Below are positions 11,449-21,166 of a stretch of DNA of 23,607 bases, piece after piece. The notes beneath the pieces were generated by a model, which did not search any database, had not been told where the DNA came from, and was given only the letters and a program-made list of their open reading frames with translations. This stretch comes from a virus: the IMG/VR virus record IMGVR_UViG_3300043777_000071, positions 1 to 23,607 of that record; one strand, written 5' to 3'. The translations under genes and the position numbers were made by a program. Positions within the stretch are counted from its first letter, which is position 1. The number at the start of each line of letters is the position of its first letter.

Positions 11449-12069
11449 TCAGGCCGCCGTTCTCAGGAGAGACCCGTCGCGCGCCAGGCGCCGCAGTTCT
11501 GACTTACACAGACGTTTGGTATTCTCGACTGCGTCGCGATTGGCGTGGTAGTAGTTCAGCACCGAGCGTACATCTACCTGGATATTTTGCTCGCGCAGTT
11601 TAAGCCACCAGCCGCGATCGAATGGCTGCATCAGGCAATGCTCGAATATGGTTTTGCAGCCTCGTTCGGTGTCCAGATCTTCGTAGTCCAAGGTCAGTAC
11701 GTTTTCCTGCGCCGATATCTGGTCCAGCATACGCGCGCCGTAATTCATATTACGGCGCAATATACCAATATCGTAGCGCATTGGGGAGATATCGACCGCT
11801 AACATCGACCGCATCACGTCGTCCACCGCGCGGCGCACGACAATGGCGCGCAAATTCGGTACATAATGATGCCATAACCACCACCCTTGCGCCGCCGCGG
11901 TCTCAGCGGTACCCACGCCGGGCTGCGAAAAATAATCGACGATGTCCCGCATGGAGCGCACGGTGATGGCTTTTTCATGCCCGCAAACCCATCCGGCGTA
12001 AGTTAAATAGCGGGACAACCACGCCGTGCGCGATCTTGGCAGCGCATAAATGATAAACGGATCGCTCAA
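11449..12069 (-). CDS. Sulfotransferase-like P-loop protein
   Basis: A 206-residue protein resembling compact sulfotransferases that use PAPS. Residues 8-18 (YALPRSRTAWL) match the PAPS 5'-phosphosulfate loop, although the usual Gly of PRSGT is Arg here. Residues 77-90 (VVRRAVDDVMRSML) resemble the 3'-phosphate binding segment, with Arg and Ser (R79, S88) in the expected pattern. A segment TLDYEDLD at about 126-133 and a Trp-containing stretch near 154 follow. The start overlaps the gp13-like gene's stop as ATGA, so the two are probably co-translated. Small PRSRT-type proteins of this kind occur in other phages, but their substrate is not established. It could modify host surface sugars, a virion protein or a small molecule, or it may only bind a nucleotide. 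Confidence 0.7.
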   Translation of the reverse strand: MSDPFIIYALPRSRTAWLSRYLTYAGWVCGHEKAITVRSMRDIVDYFSQPGVGTAETAAAQGWWLWHHYVPNLRAIVVRRAVDDVMRSMLAVDISPMRYDIGILRRNMNYGARMLDQISAQENVLTLDYEDLDTERGCKTIFEHCLMQPFDRGWWLKLREQNIQVDVRSVLNYYHANRDAVENTKRLCKSELRRLARDGSLLRTAA

Positions 12070-12521
12070 CGTGGCCGCTCCATGCGGTAGCGCCGGAACG
12101 GCGCCCCATACCTGCCGAATGGTAGCGGATTCTCGACCTTAAAGCCAACCATCTCCAGCAGGCGCACTGCTTTGGTGTAAGAAGCATCGACATAGCCCTG
12201 AAGCGCCGGGCACAGCAGTAGCATATCCGCGACTTCGCGGCGTGCTGTCTTCACGAACGCCAACTTCACCCGCTCCACGGCGGGCGTGGTGAGGAGCCAT
12301 GGCTCGCCGACCTTCCCAAAGGGACTTCCGCCCATGCCCCAGATCGCGGCGAGTTCGCCATCGACCAATGCCACTTTACTGAACAGACTGCCGCGCCACG
12401 AGCGCCACACAGCCTGACCGGGGCGCAGCCCCGCGGCCTCAACCTCGTCTTTATCTCCCGCGCGCAGCTTCACGCTGATGAGACGCACGTGCGCGGGAGT
12501 GGATGGTGTGATCTCAAGCAT
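12066..12521 (-). CDS. T7 gp13-like protein (acyltransferase fold)
   Basis: A 151-residue protein from the preferred ATG at 12521. The segment LVDGELAAIWGMGGSP, then PWLLTTPAV, a helical stretch to LLLCPALQGYVDA, then AVRLLEMVGFKVE follows the layout of T7 gp13 relatives and of GNAT acetyltransferases. The late motif, in which a residue pair after a helix leads to a Leu-x-x-x-GF, is the typical GNAT end. T7 gp13 is needed for virion assembly, not known as an enzyme, so catalysis should not be assumed. I chose the ATG at 12521 because AGGA lies eight bases before it. ATGs at 12527 and 12545 are in frame but have poor spacing. The gene overlaps the end of the nozzle gene and, by ATGA, the start of the sulfotransferase-like gene. 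Confidence 0.7.
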   Translation of the reverse strand: MLEITPSTPAHVRLISVKLRAGDKDEVEAAGLRPGQAVWRSWRGSLFSKVALVDGELAAIWGMGGSPFGKVGEPWLLTTPAVERVKLAFVKTARREVADMLLLCPALQGYVDASYTKAVRLLEMVGFKVENPLPFGRYGAPFRRYRMERPR

Positions 12522-15500
12522 CCACATCGTCCTGGATTCGGACATAAGGAGCCAAACTAAGGATCGTCAAAGGCAGCGGCAGTGTCTGCTGAATGGCGAC
12601 CTGGCCATTCGAGAAGCCCAACTGGTCGGAGACCGGCGCGACCCAGTCGCCAAACGAGAAATCATAGGGTTGAATGGGTGAGCGCGACCCTTCAACCGGA
12701 CCCGTGACATTGTTCATGTTGGTCCACGGCACCGTGGCCATGTTGGGGGACACAGACTGATCTGGCTGGTTGCAGCCGACCTGGAACGGCATACCGGCGT
12801 CCGCGATCCGCGCGATGACCTGATCGAACTCTTTACGGCGCGTCTGCACGGTAACGGCGCCCGGCATGTCCAGATAGAGGGTCTGCAACTGCGCGGTGAA
12901 GCCCAGACCGATGATGATCGCGGTCGCCGGTTGTTGCAGCGTCACCGTGCCGTTCACCACGATCTGCGACTGCTGCACGATGCCGTCCGCCAGAATGGAG
13001 ACGAGCATGCCTTCAAGGTGGTTAAGACCGTAGACAGTCGTGATGGGCGCGGTAATTGTCCAGTCACCGGACTGCGCGGGGATCGGCGTGTTCAGCGGGT
13101 CGTCCGGCAACGTACTCTCGTGTTGCTGAAGCACATCACCTGTCAGCACGGTACCAGACACGAAATTCGTCACGCGGATCAAACGGTCGCCCATGCGCAC
13201 AATGTCGCCCGCCTCGCCTTGGCCAGGGGCATTGAGGAATACCGGCGTGGACGCGGTCAGAGTGGCGGCATAAACCGTCTCGATGTTCACCGCGGCGCCG
13301 CCGCCCAGACCGGAGGGGTCGATGACATTGAAGACCGGGTCCGTATAGTCCAGCAGATTTCCTGACACCGACGCGGCGGTGACGACGCCCGCCGCGATGG
13401 TTACGGTGCCTATCGCGCCGAGACCGGTTGGGTCGTCAATCCGGACGTAAGTGGCGGCGGAGTAATTCGCACCACCATAGACCAACGTTGGTTGTTGAAG
13501 TGTCGGGATGCCCGCGGAAGACGAGATGTTCAGGATCGCGTTTGGTGTGTTCTGGGGATAAGAGAGGCCCGCGTCCACGCACCATGATTGCTCCAGATCG
13601 TCCCATTGGCGATTATCCATCCGCTCCAGGTAATTCGCCCAGACGGGGATACCGTCGTTCTGAATCAACCGCTGTACGATGAAGTAGGGCGCGTTGACCG
13701 GGGGCTCTGAAACCGTGGCGACCGACACAAACAGACCGTTGGTGTCATGACGCGACCAGGCATAGACATCCTGTTCCTTCAGATACGTCAGGCACAACAG
13801 AATGCCGTCCTCCCGGATCAGCCAGAGCAGCTTGTTAGGCTCTTCGGCCCACCCCCATTGCAGAATGGTATGCCCGTCGAACAAATGGTTCGACAGCACC
13901 GTCATGTCGGTGCCCGTGTAGATGTTGACGAAGAAGTTGTAGCTCAGATCGCGAACGATTGAACCTTTCTCCTGCACGTAGAGGATGTCGTAGTTGATGG
14001 CGATCGGCGGCACGAGAGGAGAGCAGCCATTATATGCCTGCGGGTTGGCCACCTGATTGGATGGCGTCAGAGCCGTTGACGTAGCCAGGCCGCCGCCGGC
14101 ACCCGACAACTGCCACGCGCCGAGCCCTGTGAAAATCACAAGTCCGCCAGGCATATTTAGCATCCATTGAATGCCATTCACCTGCTGGCTCCATGGCGAC
14201 CCGATAATGGCGTCGCTGTCGGAGACCGGGACACTGGAGTCCATGTTGGTGAAGGCGCCGGGCTGAGAAGCGAAATAGGTGTCCGGTTCGTTATTGGTGT
14301 TGGCGTAGATGCGCCGCTGTTGAAAATACGCCACGCAACTGGGGAACGTGCCGGTGGATGGGCCAATGTTAAGGGTCGCGGACGCGCTGGAACCGCCGCC
14401 CGTGGCGTCGATGATGTTAACAAACTCGCCGCCCGTCATCCCCGCGCCGCCATCCTGCACGACGATCCACTCGACCTGACCACCGATGACAATCGGAAGA
14501 AGTTGCGGGTTCTGCCCGATCGGGCTGACGACAGAGGCCGTCGTGCCTGTCGCGCTATAGCCAGATCCGACATCGGTCATGGTGACGGAGAGCACCGATG
14601 ACGTGGCGAAGGGATTCTTGTGCAGCGGCGGCGTGATGGCGTAATCGGGAATAACGTTGGTGTCTGTGAACGCTGGCCCGAACGCGGTGCCGATATAGCC
14701 AAACAACTGCCCGGCCGTGGGCGGATTCATGAAGGTGACAGGCGCGGAATAGAAGTTGTAGGAACCAGCGGTGGAGACCGTCCCGCAACTGATGGTGATC
14801 GTCGCGGCTTCCACGGCGATGTCCACTGACGTGGTCGTGCCCACCGGAGAAGCAATGCTTTCTTCGCCCGTGACCCTGTCGATCGCCGTGGCGACGAACT
14901 GATAGTAGAAACTTTTCGTGTCGATTCCGGAATCGACTTCCACGATGGAAATAGACGGCGGCGCGGCGACGGCGGACCCGAACATGGTTTTGGTGAGGAG
15001 CCAGTCGCTCTCCGTGATGCGCGCGAGATCGTATGGAGGGTACGAAGGATGCGTCAGCGTCATGGTATCGGCCGACTGCGTAAACTTCAGAAGCGGCAGA
15101 TCGGACGCGGCGTAAGGTGTGGCTATGGTGTAGATGCGCGCCGCCGTGCCGCCAGAGACGTAAGGCTGATAGTGCGTGGTGTCGATCTGCGTGCCGGTGA
15201 GCGTGTTCGTCAGAGTAAAGTCGTTGGTGGAGGCGTTGGAGACGATGAACGAGCGGCCACTGATCTGAGTCATACCGCTGAAACCGGTGAGGAACACTTC
15301 GTCGCCGTTGCTGTAACCGTGCCCTGTATCAGTCACGACGCCTGGGTTGGCGTTCGTGATGTTGGTAATGGTGGTTGGTGCCTCAGTGATGTACGCGCCG
15401 TCCGCGGCGAAGCGGAAGTACTTTTCGCCGCACTCTATGACGATGCCATTTTCAACGCTGAATTGAAAAGGAATGATGCGCGGAACGGGGACAGTGAGTG

Positions 15501-15696
15501 CCGTGCCTTGGTTGCCTTGCTTGCACTGACCTACCCAGCGTGTGCCAGCGCGCGTGGATGCGCCGCCGCGATACGACGCCCAGAAATTCCTGAGTGTTGA
15601 ACAACCTGACTTGTACTTGGCGAGATCGACTCTGCCAAATAGCTGTGGGCTGAGCTCCCCGGCGCTGACTGCTGGTTGGAATACAGGGACTGTAAT
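12514..15696 (-). CDS. Tail tubular protein B-like nozzle protein, probable ATT start
   Basis: A long (about 1060 residues) tail protein in the position of T7 gp12. The N-terminal segment (VFQPAVSAGELSPQLFGRVD, then YKSGCSTLRNF, SYRGGASTRAGT) is the hallmark opening of this family. A small beta domain near 122-165 (GHGYSNGDEVFLTGFSGMT) resembles the FCCH-type domain seen in many phage tail proteins. A family motif at about 458-525 follows (AYFQQRRIYANTNNEPDTYFAS, shown in part, to LVIFTGLGAWQLSG). Two related beta repeats occur at about 371-445 and 735-805, both with a G-x-x-YS start and a Gly/Ala-rich end. The first ATG, GTG or TTG in frame is GTG at 15336, 120 codons into this conserved region. 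The only start that keeps the whole domain is ATT at 15696, six bases after AAGGGGG. Confidence 0.8.
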   Translation of the reverse strand: MTVPVFQPAVSAGELSPQLFGRVDLAKYKSGCSTLRNFWASYRGGASTRAGTRWVGQCKQGNQGTALTVPVPRIIPFQFSVENGIVIECGEKYFRFAADGAYITEAPTTITNITNANPGVVTDTGHGYSNGDEVFLTGFSGMTQISGRSFIVSNASTNDFTLTNTLTGTQIDTTHYQPYVSGGTAARIYTIATPYAASDLPLLKFTQSADTMTLTHPSYPPYDLARITESDWLLTKTMFGSAVAAPPSISIVEVDSGIDTKSFYYQFVATAIDRVTGEESIASPVGTTTSVDIAVEAATITISCGTVSTAGSYNFYSAPVTFMNPPTAGQLFGYIGTAFGPAFTDTNVIPDYAITPPLHKNPFATSSVLSVTMTDVGSGYSATGTTASVVSPIGQNPQLLPIVIGGQVEWIVVQDGGAGMTGGEFVNIIDATGGGSSASATLNIGPSTGTFPSCVAYFQQRRIYANTNNEPDTYFASQPGAFTNMDSSVPVSDSDAIIGSPWSQQVNGIQWMLNMPGGLVIFTGLGAWQLSGAGGGLATSTALTPSNQVANPQAYNGCSPLVPPIAINYDILYVQEKGSIVRDLSYNFFVNIYTGTDMTVLSNHLFDGHTILQWGWAEEPNKLLWLIREDGILLCLTYLKEQDVYAWSRHDTNGLFVSVATVSEPPVNAPYFIVQRLIQNDGIPVWANYLERMDNRQWDDLEQSWCVDAGLSYPQNTPNAILNISSSAGIPTLQQPTLVYGGANYSAATYVRIDDPTGLGAIGTVTIAAGVVTAASVSGNLLDYTDPVFNVIDPSGLGGGAAVNIETVYAATLTASTPVFLNAPGQGEAGDIVRMGDRLIRVTNFVSGTVLTGDVLQQHESTLPDDPLNTPIPAQSGDWTITAPITTVYGLNHLEGMLVSILADGIVQQSQIVVNGTVTLQQPATAIIIGLGFTAQLQTLYLDMPGAVTVQTRRKEFDQVIARIADAGMPFQVGCNQPDQSVSPNMATVPWTNMNNVTGPVEGSRSPIQPYDFSFGDWVAPVSDQLGFSNGQVAIQQTLPLPLTILSLAPYVRIQDDVDA

Positions 15697-15709
15697 TTTA
15701 CACCCCCTT
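15694..15709 (-). promoter_or_regulatory. Ribosome binding site and ATT start of the nozzle gene
   Basis: Directly after the adaptor stop codon the minus strand reads AAGGGGGTGTAAAATT. The purine run can pair with the 16S 3' end, and ATT follows six bases after it, at normal start spacing. A GTG inside the run is in another frame and is followed at once by TAA, so it cannot start the gene. A TAG lies in the same frame about 32 bases upstream of the ATT, and no ATG, GTG or TTG occurs between it and position 15336. Confidence 0.55.
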
Positions 15710-16520
15710 AGTAGCGCAAGCCACTGCTACCATCAGGAAAAGCGAGACCGCCCCAGCCGCCGCCAGCCCCATAGCCCGCACCGCTATACGGACCAAGCCC
15801 CCAACCTCCAAAGCCATTTGTCATGCGCGCTGTAATCCACTCAGCGCTACGGTCTACCGACGATATCGATTCGTCCCCGTTGATTACCCGCGCCTCATCC
15901 AAAAGACCTTTGGTCTGCGCTACCTGCTGAGCGTATTGTTGGGCGTTGCGCGCCAGAGCGTTAATGGCATAGCAGCCGAGATAGGAGGTGATGGAGTTGA
16001 GCAGCAGAACGTCCCACGCATCGGGCGTCTGCGACAAATCGCGCGTGTAGACCAGAGAAGCCGCGCACAGATTTGTATAGAGAACTTTGATCGGATTCCC
16101 CTGCGCGTCGAAATCTGTGGCCACGACAAAAGGAATGCCGGTCGGCGCGGGCGGTATGAGGGCGAGTGAATTAGGCGCGGTGGTGAGCGGCACACCTTGA
16201 GGCTGTGCGGGGATGGTCGGCAATAAGAACCGCGCCATCAGGCAATCGGGGGGTAGCAGATACTCGAACAGCCACGGCTGGATGGGCGGATTCGATGTCG
16301 TTACGCCGTTTATCACCGCGGCTTTATAGAGAGTCAGAACGACCTGGCCTCTCAGGCAGTTCCATTTGACCGCGCGCATGATAGCTTGCACGCGTGGAGT
16401 GTAGTTCAGAAAAGCAAATTGCCCCGCGGGCGACGTGTCAGACCCGTTGGCCGATGTTATCGTATAGCGGCTGCCCACCTCGGACAGGGCGAGTTGACAT
16501 ACATTGGTCGGTGTGGTCAC
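15708..16520 (-). CDS. Head-to-tail adaptor, T7 gp11-like tail tubular protein A
   Basis: A 270-residue protein that probably sits below the portal and joins the head to the tail nozzle. The N-terminus (TNVCQLALSEVGSRYTI, then a helix to YTPRVQAIMRAVKWNCLR) has the classic layout of gp11-like adaptors: Ala-Leu helix, Gly turn, a run to an Arg-containing helix, then Trp-Asn. The segment PWLFEYLLPPDCL at about 82-94 and the late helix LLLNSITSYLGCYAINAL fit the same family. The C-terminal 40 residues are Gly/Tyr/Trp-rich and probably flexible. The start is GTG at 16520, six bases after a strong GGAGG-type ribosome site, which makes the start secure. Its stop is followed directly by the nozzle gene's ribosome site. 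Confidence 0.8.
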   Translation of the reverse strand: MTTPTNVCQLALSEVGSRYTITSANGSDTSPAGQFAFLNYTPRVQAIMRAVKWNCLRGQVVLTLYKAAVINGVTTSNPPIQPWLFEYLLPPDCLMARFLLPTIPAQPQGVPLTTAPNSLALIPPAPTGIPFVVATDFDAQGNPIKVLYTNLCAASLVYTRDLSQTPDAWDVLLLNSITSYLGCYAINALARNAQQYAQQVAQTKGLLDEARVINGDESISSVDRSAEWITARMTNGFGGWGLGPYSGAGYGAGGGWGGLAFPDGSSGLRY

Positions 16521-17101: not shown

Positions 17102-17424
17102 TAGTCGGGTTCGTTTTCCTCTCCTTCCGATTCCAGCGCCAGGTCTGTAATCGAAAGTTCCACGCGAATCTCGGAGCCGTTTCCAGTGTCTCGCTTCGAC
17201 ACCGAGGTAACCTGCGCAAGTGCGAACAGATGAATGGTGTCGCCGCACTCGCAATCTTCGTCGAGATCCAGCTTTTCGAGTTCGGTTTCCGTCAACGATA
17301 TGCAAAGGCCGTACGGAACATCGGGGATGTCCATCGGCACCGGCATGACGCGCTCAACTGCCTCCTCCACCTTTTCTTCAGGCGTCCTCCGCATCGAGAC
17401 AAACTTGTGGAAATGTCCGGCCAT
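17101..17424 (-). CDS. Capsid staple-like protein
   Basis: A 107-residue protein resembling the small staple or stabilising proteins that clamp neighbouring capsomers on some tailed-phage heads. The matching features, counted from this start, are PYGLCISLTETELEKLDLD (about 37-55), then a short acidic turn, GDTIHLFALAQVTSVSKRD (about 61-79), and VELSITDLALE (about 87-97) before an acidic tail. Two ATGs are possible. The second, at 17424, lies four bases after the AGGAGG site, and the first, at 17427, lies only one base after it, so I chose the second. The site itself is inside the last codons of the upstream endonuclease gene. Family recognition is from memory of the pattern; a profile search should settle it. 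Confidence 0.7.
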   Translation of the reverse strand: MAGHFHKFVSMRRTPEEKVEEAVERVMPVPMDIPDVPYGLCISLTETELEKLDLDEDCECGDTIHLFALAQVTSVSKRDTGNGSEIRVELSITDLALESEGEENEPD

Positions 17425-18059
17425 CATACCTCCTGATATTTTTCGAGATACGCAATAGCGTTTCTCATAAGGGCGATGTCATCATTCATGTGCCCCAGAC
17501 CAAGATTGCATTTTTGACACAGAACGCCACGGATCATACCTGTTTTGTGGTCATGATCGATACAGGTCTCTTTTGCCAAAAAATCCATAGGCTGCCTACA
17601 AATTCCGCATAGTCCATTTTGCGCATCAAAGAGCGCCTTAAACGCTACGCTCGTTATTCCGCGAGTATATCTGCGTCTGTAATCATGTGCTGTAGGTTCT
17701 ATGGGAGGCTTACGCTTCGTTCCTCGATTAGCATTACGCTGAGAGTTTTTACACGCCTTGCACCTTACTTCCCGACCAGTAGGGTAGTACTGCGTCTTAT
17801 GAAACTCATTGAGATACTTTTCTATTCCGCAGGCCAAACAAATTTGTTTTACAGTAGCTATCTGCGGGGCCGCGTCATCAAAAATTTCATAAGTTCTACG
17901 CCTGGTGTTCAAACAGTCTTTACAGGTGTAGCCTTTCTGCCCGCGAGATCGCGCCCTTTTACTGCTATCCTCGTGGAACGCAAACGGCTCTTTCATCTCT
18001 CCGCATGCGTTGCACGAAAGAAGATTTGGTTCTACCAGCCTAAGTTGCGCAGCGCCCAC
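17424..18059 (-). CDS. Endonuclease VII-like HNH endonuclease, free-standing
   Basis: A 211-residue probable DNA endonuclease. Two zinc-ribbon-like units come first: C16xxC19 with C46xxC49, and C74xxC77 with C100xxC103, each with an F-H pair between the Cys pairs. The C-terminal part is an endonuclease-VII-type HNH domain: YTRGIT near 131-136, zinc ligands C151, C154, C181 and C184, the catalytic-type DHDHKTG at 168-174, and N185. The gene is visibly richer in A and T than both neighbours, which suggests recent arrival. The start is GTG at 18059, nine bases after AGGA. Its stop overlaps the staple gene start. Proteins of this layout are common as homing-type invaders of phage structural clusters; a role in resolving branched DNA, as for T4 endonuclease VII, is possible but less likely here. 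Confidence 0.85.
   Translation of the reverse strand: MGAAQLRLVEPNLLSCNACGEMKEPFAFHEDSSKRARSRGQKGYTCKDCLNTRRRTYEIFDDAAPQIATVKQICLACGIEKYLNEFHKTQYYPTGREVRCKACKNSQRNANRGTKRKPPIEPTAHDYRRRYTRGITSVAFKALFDAQNGLCGICRQPMDFLAKETCIDHDHKTGMIRGVLCQKCNLGLGHMNDDIALMRNAIAYLEKYQEV
17428..17434 (-). promoter_or_regulatory. Ribosome binding site of the staple gene inside the endonuclease 3' end
   Basis: The minus strand reads AGGAGGT here. These bases are also codons in the last few residues (QEV) of the endonuclease-VII-like gene. The site serves the ATG pair at 17427 and 17424. Confidence 0.7.
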
Positions 18060-20242: not shown

Positions 20243-21166
20243 TCAGTCTCCTTTGGAGGGCGCGGGTGCGACCAATCCGATTTCTTCAGGCAGCTTCGCA
20301 CCCTTTGTGCGGTTGCATTTAACGTGGAGCAACTTCACGTTGTCCGCGGTGTTATGGCCTCCGCGCGCCATCGGAATCCAGTGGTCAATCTCAGGCACTT
20401 CATCGCCAAACGGATTTGCACAGAAAGCGCAAATACCCGCCTGTTCCGCCACCGCGGCGTAAATGTCTACCAGCGTTAATTCACCGGGCACGTTGAGGCG
20501 TTTGGCACGGGAGTTTTGCGACTTAATGCGGGCGTGGAAAACGCTGTTACGATCTGGCCACCTATCCAAATAGTCGATCAGTTCTGCTTCCGTGAATGTC
20601 GCCAGATGACCAATCACACCCGGCACTCGACCCTCTGCGAGGGCGCGAGCAGCAGTTTTTATCCTGTGCAACTCAGCATCACGTGCACGTACTTCTTCTA
20701 AATTAGTAGTGCGCCACCGTGCATAATTATCTCTGCGATTCACAATACGTTCTTCATCAGTGAGACGACGCGGGCCGCCGACCTTACCCGGTTCGCGCCC
20801 CTCCAAAACAGCTTTCGCTGCTCGCGCCGCCCTAATACGTTCCCGCGTTCGTAATGAACGACGCTTATTTTGTTTAATCCGACTTGCTTCTTTTTCTTCC
20901 GGCGTAAGACGTGCTGGTCGTCCAACCTTTCCAGGTTCGCGTCCCTCCGCGACTGCTTTAGCGGCGGCCTTTTCACGCTGCGCAGCGAGAATTTTTGCTC
21001 GCTGCGCATCTGATTTATCAGCCCATGTCTGAGCGTATTTAATTCTGTCCTCTTCGTCCCACGCCATTTCGCCTATCTCCATCAGCATAGCCGAAGCCAG
21101 GATACCGGGGAATATTTCCGGAGTCCAGGCAAATCCGCTCACTGGTGAAGAAAACGTGCGAACCAT
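20243..21166 (-). CDS. HNH endonuclease with three-copy EGREPGK repeat
   Basis: A 307-residue probable free-standing homing-type endonuclease inserted between major capsid and cement genes. The C-terminal HNH domain spans about 240-292. Probable zinc ligands are C246 and C249, then H281 and C284. DHWIP at 261-265, a GGHNTADN loop and the CNRTK end complete the signature. The N-terminal part holds three copies of a 24-residue unit, at about 68-91, 116-139 and 172-195. The unit reads AA-x-A, then EGREPGKVGRPARLT in the clearest copy; the third copy is more diverged. The GRP core is AT-hook-like and may contact DNA. The start is ATG 21166, or ATG 21067, which has a better GGAG site. The flanking genes look intact, so this is an intergenic insertion, not an intron. 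Confidence 0.8.
   Translation of the reverse strand: MVRTFSSPVSGFAWTPEIFPGILASAMLMEIGEMAWDEEDRIKYAQTWADKSDAQRAKILAAQREKAAAKAVAEGREPGKVGRPARLTPEEKEASRIKQNKRRSLRTRERIRAARAAKAVLEGREPGKVGGPRRLTDEERIVNRRDNYARWRTTNLEEVRARDAELHRIKTAARALAEGRVPGVIGHLATFTEAELIDYLDRWPDRNSVFHARIKSQNSRAKRLNVPGELTLVDIYAAVAEQAGICAFCANPFGDEVPEIDHWIPMARGGHNTADNVKLLHVKCNRTKGAKLPEEIGLVAPAPSKGD
20246..20254 (-). promoter_or_regulatory. Ribosome binding site of the cement gene inside the HNH 3' end
   Basis: The minus strand reads AAAGGAGAC, six bases before ATG 20241. The same bases encode the last residues (KGD) of the HNH gene, whose TGA lies one base before the cement ATG. Confidence 0.75.

Follow-up and report, generated by a model that had tools for sequence, protein, structure and literature searches.

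To our knowledge, the ATT-initiated genes that have been well documented are few in number and mostly cellular. In phage T4, the baseplate gene 26 has an internal AUU start from which a shorter product is made. The infC gene (IF3) starts with ATT in Escherichia coli and with ATC in Streptomyces (PMC5472188). The AUU start of E. coli pcnB limits expression by experiment (Binns and Masters 2002, as cited in PMC13009471), and in Staphylococcus aureus the near-cognate starts of cvfC1 (AUU) and ccpN (AUA), both with an extended Shine-Dalgarno sequence (SD), yield about 10% of the output of AUG (PMC13009471).

In the window (the whole stretch of 23,607 nucleotides analysed here), the tail nozzle gene very probably has ATT 15696 as its natural initiation codon, with a strong SD and probably with ribosomes delivered by the stop of the upstream tail-tube gene. 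This kind of start is already known from infC, pcnB and cvfC1, and the nozzle gene joins them. As in infC, ATT would be the sole start of a full-length conserved protein, but the infC start is conserved and autoregulated by IF3, whereas the nozzle ATT is lineage-specific and belongs to a phage structural gene without known feedback. An AUU gene start is shared with pcnB, although the nozzle case is known from sequence alone. The combination of a near-cognate start with an extended SD recalls cvfC1 and ccpN, which unlike the nozzle gene are cellular and have start codons conserved between species. T4 gene 26 is comparable in that there, too, a phage tail-structure gene uses AUU; its start is internal, while the full-length nozzle would have no start other than ATT. 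The present survey adds to the known cases seven independent starts of the near-cognate type, all in virion genes of a single phage group, and for two of the seven there is confirmation from separate assemblies.

Identification of the nozzle gene and its reading frame

The virus record that makes up the window (23.6 kb) has its head and tail genes on the minus strand. Within the structural block the nozzle gene directly follows the tail-tube gene, an order shared by Bordetella phage BPP-1 and other cultured podoviruses.

12514..15696, minus strand: tail nozzle gene with 1060 codons, counted from ATT, and a stop (phrog_376, E 8.6e-150; PDB 8ck1 Tail Nozzle, E 1.4e-93)
15708..16520, minus strand: tail-tube (TTA-like) gene directly upstream of the nozzle gene, GTG start, stop TAA 15710-15708 (phrog_394, E 4.1e-18)
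15694..15696, minus strand: ATT, the probable start codon of the nozzle gene, at the family start column; a canonical codon is absent upstream in frame and for 120 codons downstream
15727..15729, minus strand: in-frame TAG closing the nozzle frame upstream, from the codon list
15337..15696, minus strand: 120 codons lost by a gene finder using only ATG, GTG and TTG; matched to phrog_376 on their own, with coding constraint as in the rest of the gene

The phrog_376 profile covers residues 5-1056 of the nozzle protein, and in the match to the solved Tail Nozzle (8ck1) window residues 6-106 align with chain residues 13-106. The conserved N-terminal nozzle segment that had been expected in frame, VFQPAVSAGELSPQLFGRVD, was found. 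After TAG 15729-15727 the codons read CAG TGG CTT GCG CTA CTA AGG GGG TGT AAA ATT(15696-15694), and after ATT 15696 ACA GTC CCT GTA TTC CAA CCA GCA GTC AGC GCC GGG GAG. The TAG, given in the original prediction as about 32 bases upstream of ATT, starts 33 bases before it, and the predicted purine run AAGGGGG (15709-15703) is indeed separated from ATT by six bases, TGTAAA. No ATG, GTG or TTG was found in the nozzle frame of the minus strand between TAG 15729 and GTG 15336, the first such codon (ORF 12514..15336, 940 aa), which lies 120 codons further in and inside the conserved region, as had been stated.

The residues upstream of 15336, for which a profile search had been suggested, match phrog_376 by themselves (residues 1-119, E 7.8e-26). 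Their amino-acid identity with the three closest relatives is 0.61-0.66, the same as in the rest of the gene, and the differences fall heavily on third positions, also as in the rest. From the family match and this pattern of identity and third-position changes, the 120 codons before GTG 15336 can be taken as genuine coding sequence. A gene finder limited to ATG, GTG and TTG would thus lose 120 residues, the truncation that had been foreseen, and would truncate or miss other genes of this type.

Start site in related nozzle genes

The IMG/VR scans yielded over 200 loci, many of which were repeats of one contig; the survey was made on non-redundant genes and anchored on the profile. Among 135 nozzle genes the start was ATG in 96, GTG in 28 and TTG in seven, and four had none of these. 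The start column coincides exactly with the window ATT in 112 of the 135, the four noncanonical genes being counted by the codon in its place, and lies within four codons in the others. This alignment, which had been proposed as a check, places ATT at the family start column and, together with a very strong SD and the recurrence of ATH and CTG starts in relatives, supports the predicted start. In many relatives a stop codon lies one to a few codons upstream of the nozzle start, which excludes an N-terminal extension.

The four genes without a canonical start have ATT (the window), ATT (L037), CTG (L055) and ATC (L137) at the column, and the CTG of L055 overlaps the upstream TGA. L124 was flagged falsely by the motif anchor and has an ATG. 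The nearest sister nozzle genes start with ATG, GTG or TTG: the closest relative (L013, 67% identity) has GTG, as does L001, and L014 has ATG. The rare start is therefore not kept among the close relatives of the window nozzle gene, and only in other genes was such a start seen to persist.

Near-cognate starts in other virion genes

At the same loci, 131 tail-tube genes start with ATG (94), GTG (26) or TTG (nine), and two have none of these, namely ATA in L146 and ATC behind AGGAGG in L075. The rates in nozzle (4/135) and tail-tube genes (2/131) do not differ (Fisher p 0.68). In the internal virion protein family one lineage has ATC behind TAGGAG (L208 8357, L209 8358, L210 8347). As both of these families have near-cognate starts, such starts are not specific to the nozzle. 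An acetyltransferase-like family gave no noncanonical starts among 89 genes, with lower power owing to its less fixed N-terminus, and one further family was of no use as a control because its N-terminus varies. Among the genes flagged as start-less in the additional control families, most were artefacts of the alignment and have a methionine visible downstream; only the ATC of L208-L210 survived. Near-cognate starts are lineage-specific, and across the surveyed nozzle, tail-tube and internal virion genes their frequency is about 1-3%.

Two of these ATC starts recur in separate assemblies. The tail-tube ATC of L075 is found again in L235, from another metagenome, with 99.9% identity over 3370 nt; the ATC behind AGGAGG is seen in L075, L233 and L235, contigs of two metagenomes, and the related L234 and L236 have ATG. 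The internal virion ATC is common to three contigs from three metagenome records, of which L210 has many differences just downstream of the ATC and L208 a one-base difference in the spacer. From these sequences, sequencing error would be very hard to accept as the origin of the L075 and L208-L210 starts.

Strength of the Shine-Dalgarno sequence

15701..15710, minus strand: Shine-Dalgarno sequence TAAGGGGGTG, which shares bases with the stop codon of the tail-tube gene (anti-SD duplex -15.0 kcal/mol, 10 bp)

SDs were scored by the energy of anti-SD pairing within 18 bases upstream of the start. The value of the window nozzle gene is equalled by two of 260 canonical starts of relatives (top 1%) and is the strongest of the 19 gene starts in the window, none of the 18 others reaching -15.0 kcal/mol; the SD of the sister nozzle gene in L013 scores -2.7 kcal/mol. 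The window gene combines a near-cognate codon, placed where its homologues start, with an SD at workable spacing. For all seven near-cognate starts the median is -8.4 kcal/mol, compared with -6.25 kcal/mol for canonical starts (one-sided p 0.020; p 0.062 when the window gene is left out). In prokaryotes, the weak start codons GUG and UUG are likewise coupled with stronger SDs, and in tens of thousands of genes only a few switches to AUU or CUG were reconstructed, a rate that is based on annotated starts and is not directly comparable with the present survey (PMC5622118). The stronger SDs at rare starts look like compensation, which fits at least as well as throttling. The near-cognate cases are ready tests of whether a strong SD can rescue a weak start codon in operons.

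Proposed dose limitation and IF3 sensitivity

It had been proposed that ATT is a dose-limiting start. T7-like nozzles are present in few copies per virion, and dose limitation for such a low-copy protein is plausible. In its full form, the proposal would be that the ATT was selected to throttle nozzle synthesis to match the low copy number and is sensitive to IF3 like infC or sigR. Output is lower from noncanonical starts, which IF3 represses (PMC13009471; PMC5472188; PMC2268962), and from this IF3 sensitivity is predicted for the nozzle gene, and among the genes surveyed the nozzle has the most near-cognate cases. However, the difference from the tail-tube gene is not significant, the rare start is confined to lineages whose sisters have canonical codons, and the stronger SD would cancel the reduced output. 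Selection for throttling is therefore unlikely, and a nozzle-specific, dose-limiting role is not supported. That the weak codon limits the nozzle dose or confers IF3 sensitivity is speculative; the strong SD, together with the canonical starts of the sisters, would rather favour compensation. A broader reading, which we regard as doubtful, is that one widespread group of uncultured podoviruses repeatedly evolves ATT, ATC, ATA or CTG starts in virion genes with stronger SDs, tying the stoichiometry of virion proteins to the initiation fidelity of the host (IF3) and to coupling with the upstream gene.

Less probable alternatives: sequencing error, frameshifting and a truncated start

ATT is one substitution away from ATG, the sister genes have canonical codons, and T15694 is known from one metagenome record, a second copy of the window phage having been found in none of the collections searched. 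A search of genome contigs with a 17-base motif hit only scattered sites in unrelated organisms, a pattern expected by chance. These points would suit a sequencing or assembly error in the third base of an ATG or other canonical codon. Such an error is nevertheless improbable, because near-cognate starts recur in relatives and the two ATC starts stand in separate metagenome assemblies, so that ATH starts are confirmed for two other genes of related phages. The codons of the seven lineages (ATT, ATT, ATC, ATC, ATC, ATA and CTG) are all known near-cognates that can function as starts, with no products of the AAG, ACG or AGG type; under random single substitution of the observed start codons, such a set has a chance of 0.004, a figure that assumes equal substitution rates and comes from a survey that was not pre-registered. 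An error also does not predict an SD in the top 1%, and the long frames of the window, of 1060, 1085 and 1815 codons, are unbroken. The intact 1060-codon nozzle frame likewise rules out a pseudogene.

In favour of a -1 ribosomal frameshift at the end of the tail-tube gene, giving a tail-tube/nozzle fusion, ten codons upstream of ATT are open in the nozzle frame, which relative to the tail-tube gene is frame -1. Such a fusion was rejected as very improbable: no slippery heptamer was found before TAA 15710, relatives have in-frame stops between both genes with varying frame relations, and the nozzle gene has an independent SD. A start at GTG 15336, the first canonical codon in frame, with the first 120 residues absent from the protein, was rejected as the least probable of all, the upstream residues being conserved as protein and part of the solved nozzle chain.

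Proposed initiation and a predicted RNA hairpin

With ATT 15696 as the natural start, ribosomes finishing the tail-tube gene would halt at TAA 15710-15708, itself part of the nozzle SD, and because of this overlap a terminating ribosome would arrive at the nozzle start. Pairing with 16S rRNA over 10 bp would keep the 30S subunit over the ATT, where the initiator tRNA could start in spite of the third-position mismatch to give the full-length nozzle. We infer in this way initiation at ATT inside cells, coupling to the tail-tube gene and a strong SD that offsets the weak codon.

15685..15708, minus strand: predicted RNA hairpin with ATT at its tip and part of the SD paired (-12.0 kcal/mol for a 28-nt stretch; suggestive only)

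In this predicted hairpin, part of the SD pairs with codons 3-4. The z score is -3.6 for the 28-nt stretch, which was chosen after inspection; for a stretch of 51 nt it is -0.9, and for 86 nt it is close to 0. The accessibility of the window SD is in the lowest tenth among relatives, and the SD may be partly hidden in the hairpin. In the other start regions folded, those of L037 and the sister L013, the hairpin was not seen. The hairpin around ATT is suggested by the folding as a lead only; if it is real, translation of the tail-tube gene would have to open it for the nozzle to be translated.

Additional observations on the nozzle and neighbouring genes

A Pfam match to E1_FCCH (PF16190, E 1.3e-7) covers nozzle residues 119-186 (window 15139-15342, minus strand). 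The domain name derives from a eukaryotic ubiquitin-activating enzyme. In some phage records the whole nozzle is named after this domain, which is probably a misleading annotation. The nozzle of L002 (2214-7700) is 1828 aa long; its N-terminal third contains a repeat-rich insertion, several hundred residues in length, and it also has a C-terminal extension. Amid the virion genes of the window, a TTG-started ORF (11449-12069, minus strand) has an N-terminus that appears sulfotransferase-like by eye (YALPRSRTAWLSRYLTYAGW), and a similar ORF is present in L094. Two ORFs among the structural genes, at 20243-21166 and 17424-18059 on the minus strand, resemble HNH endonucleases by eye.
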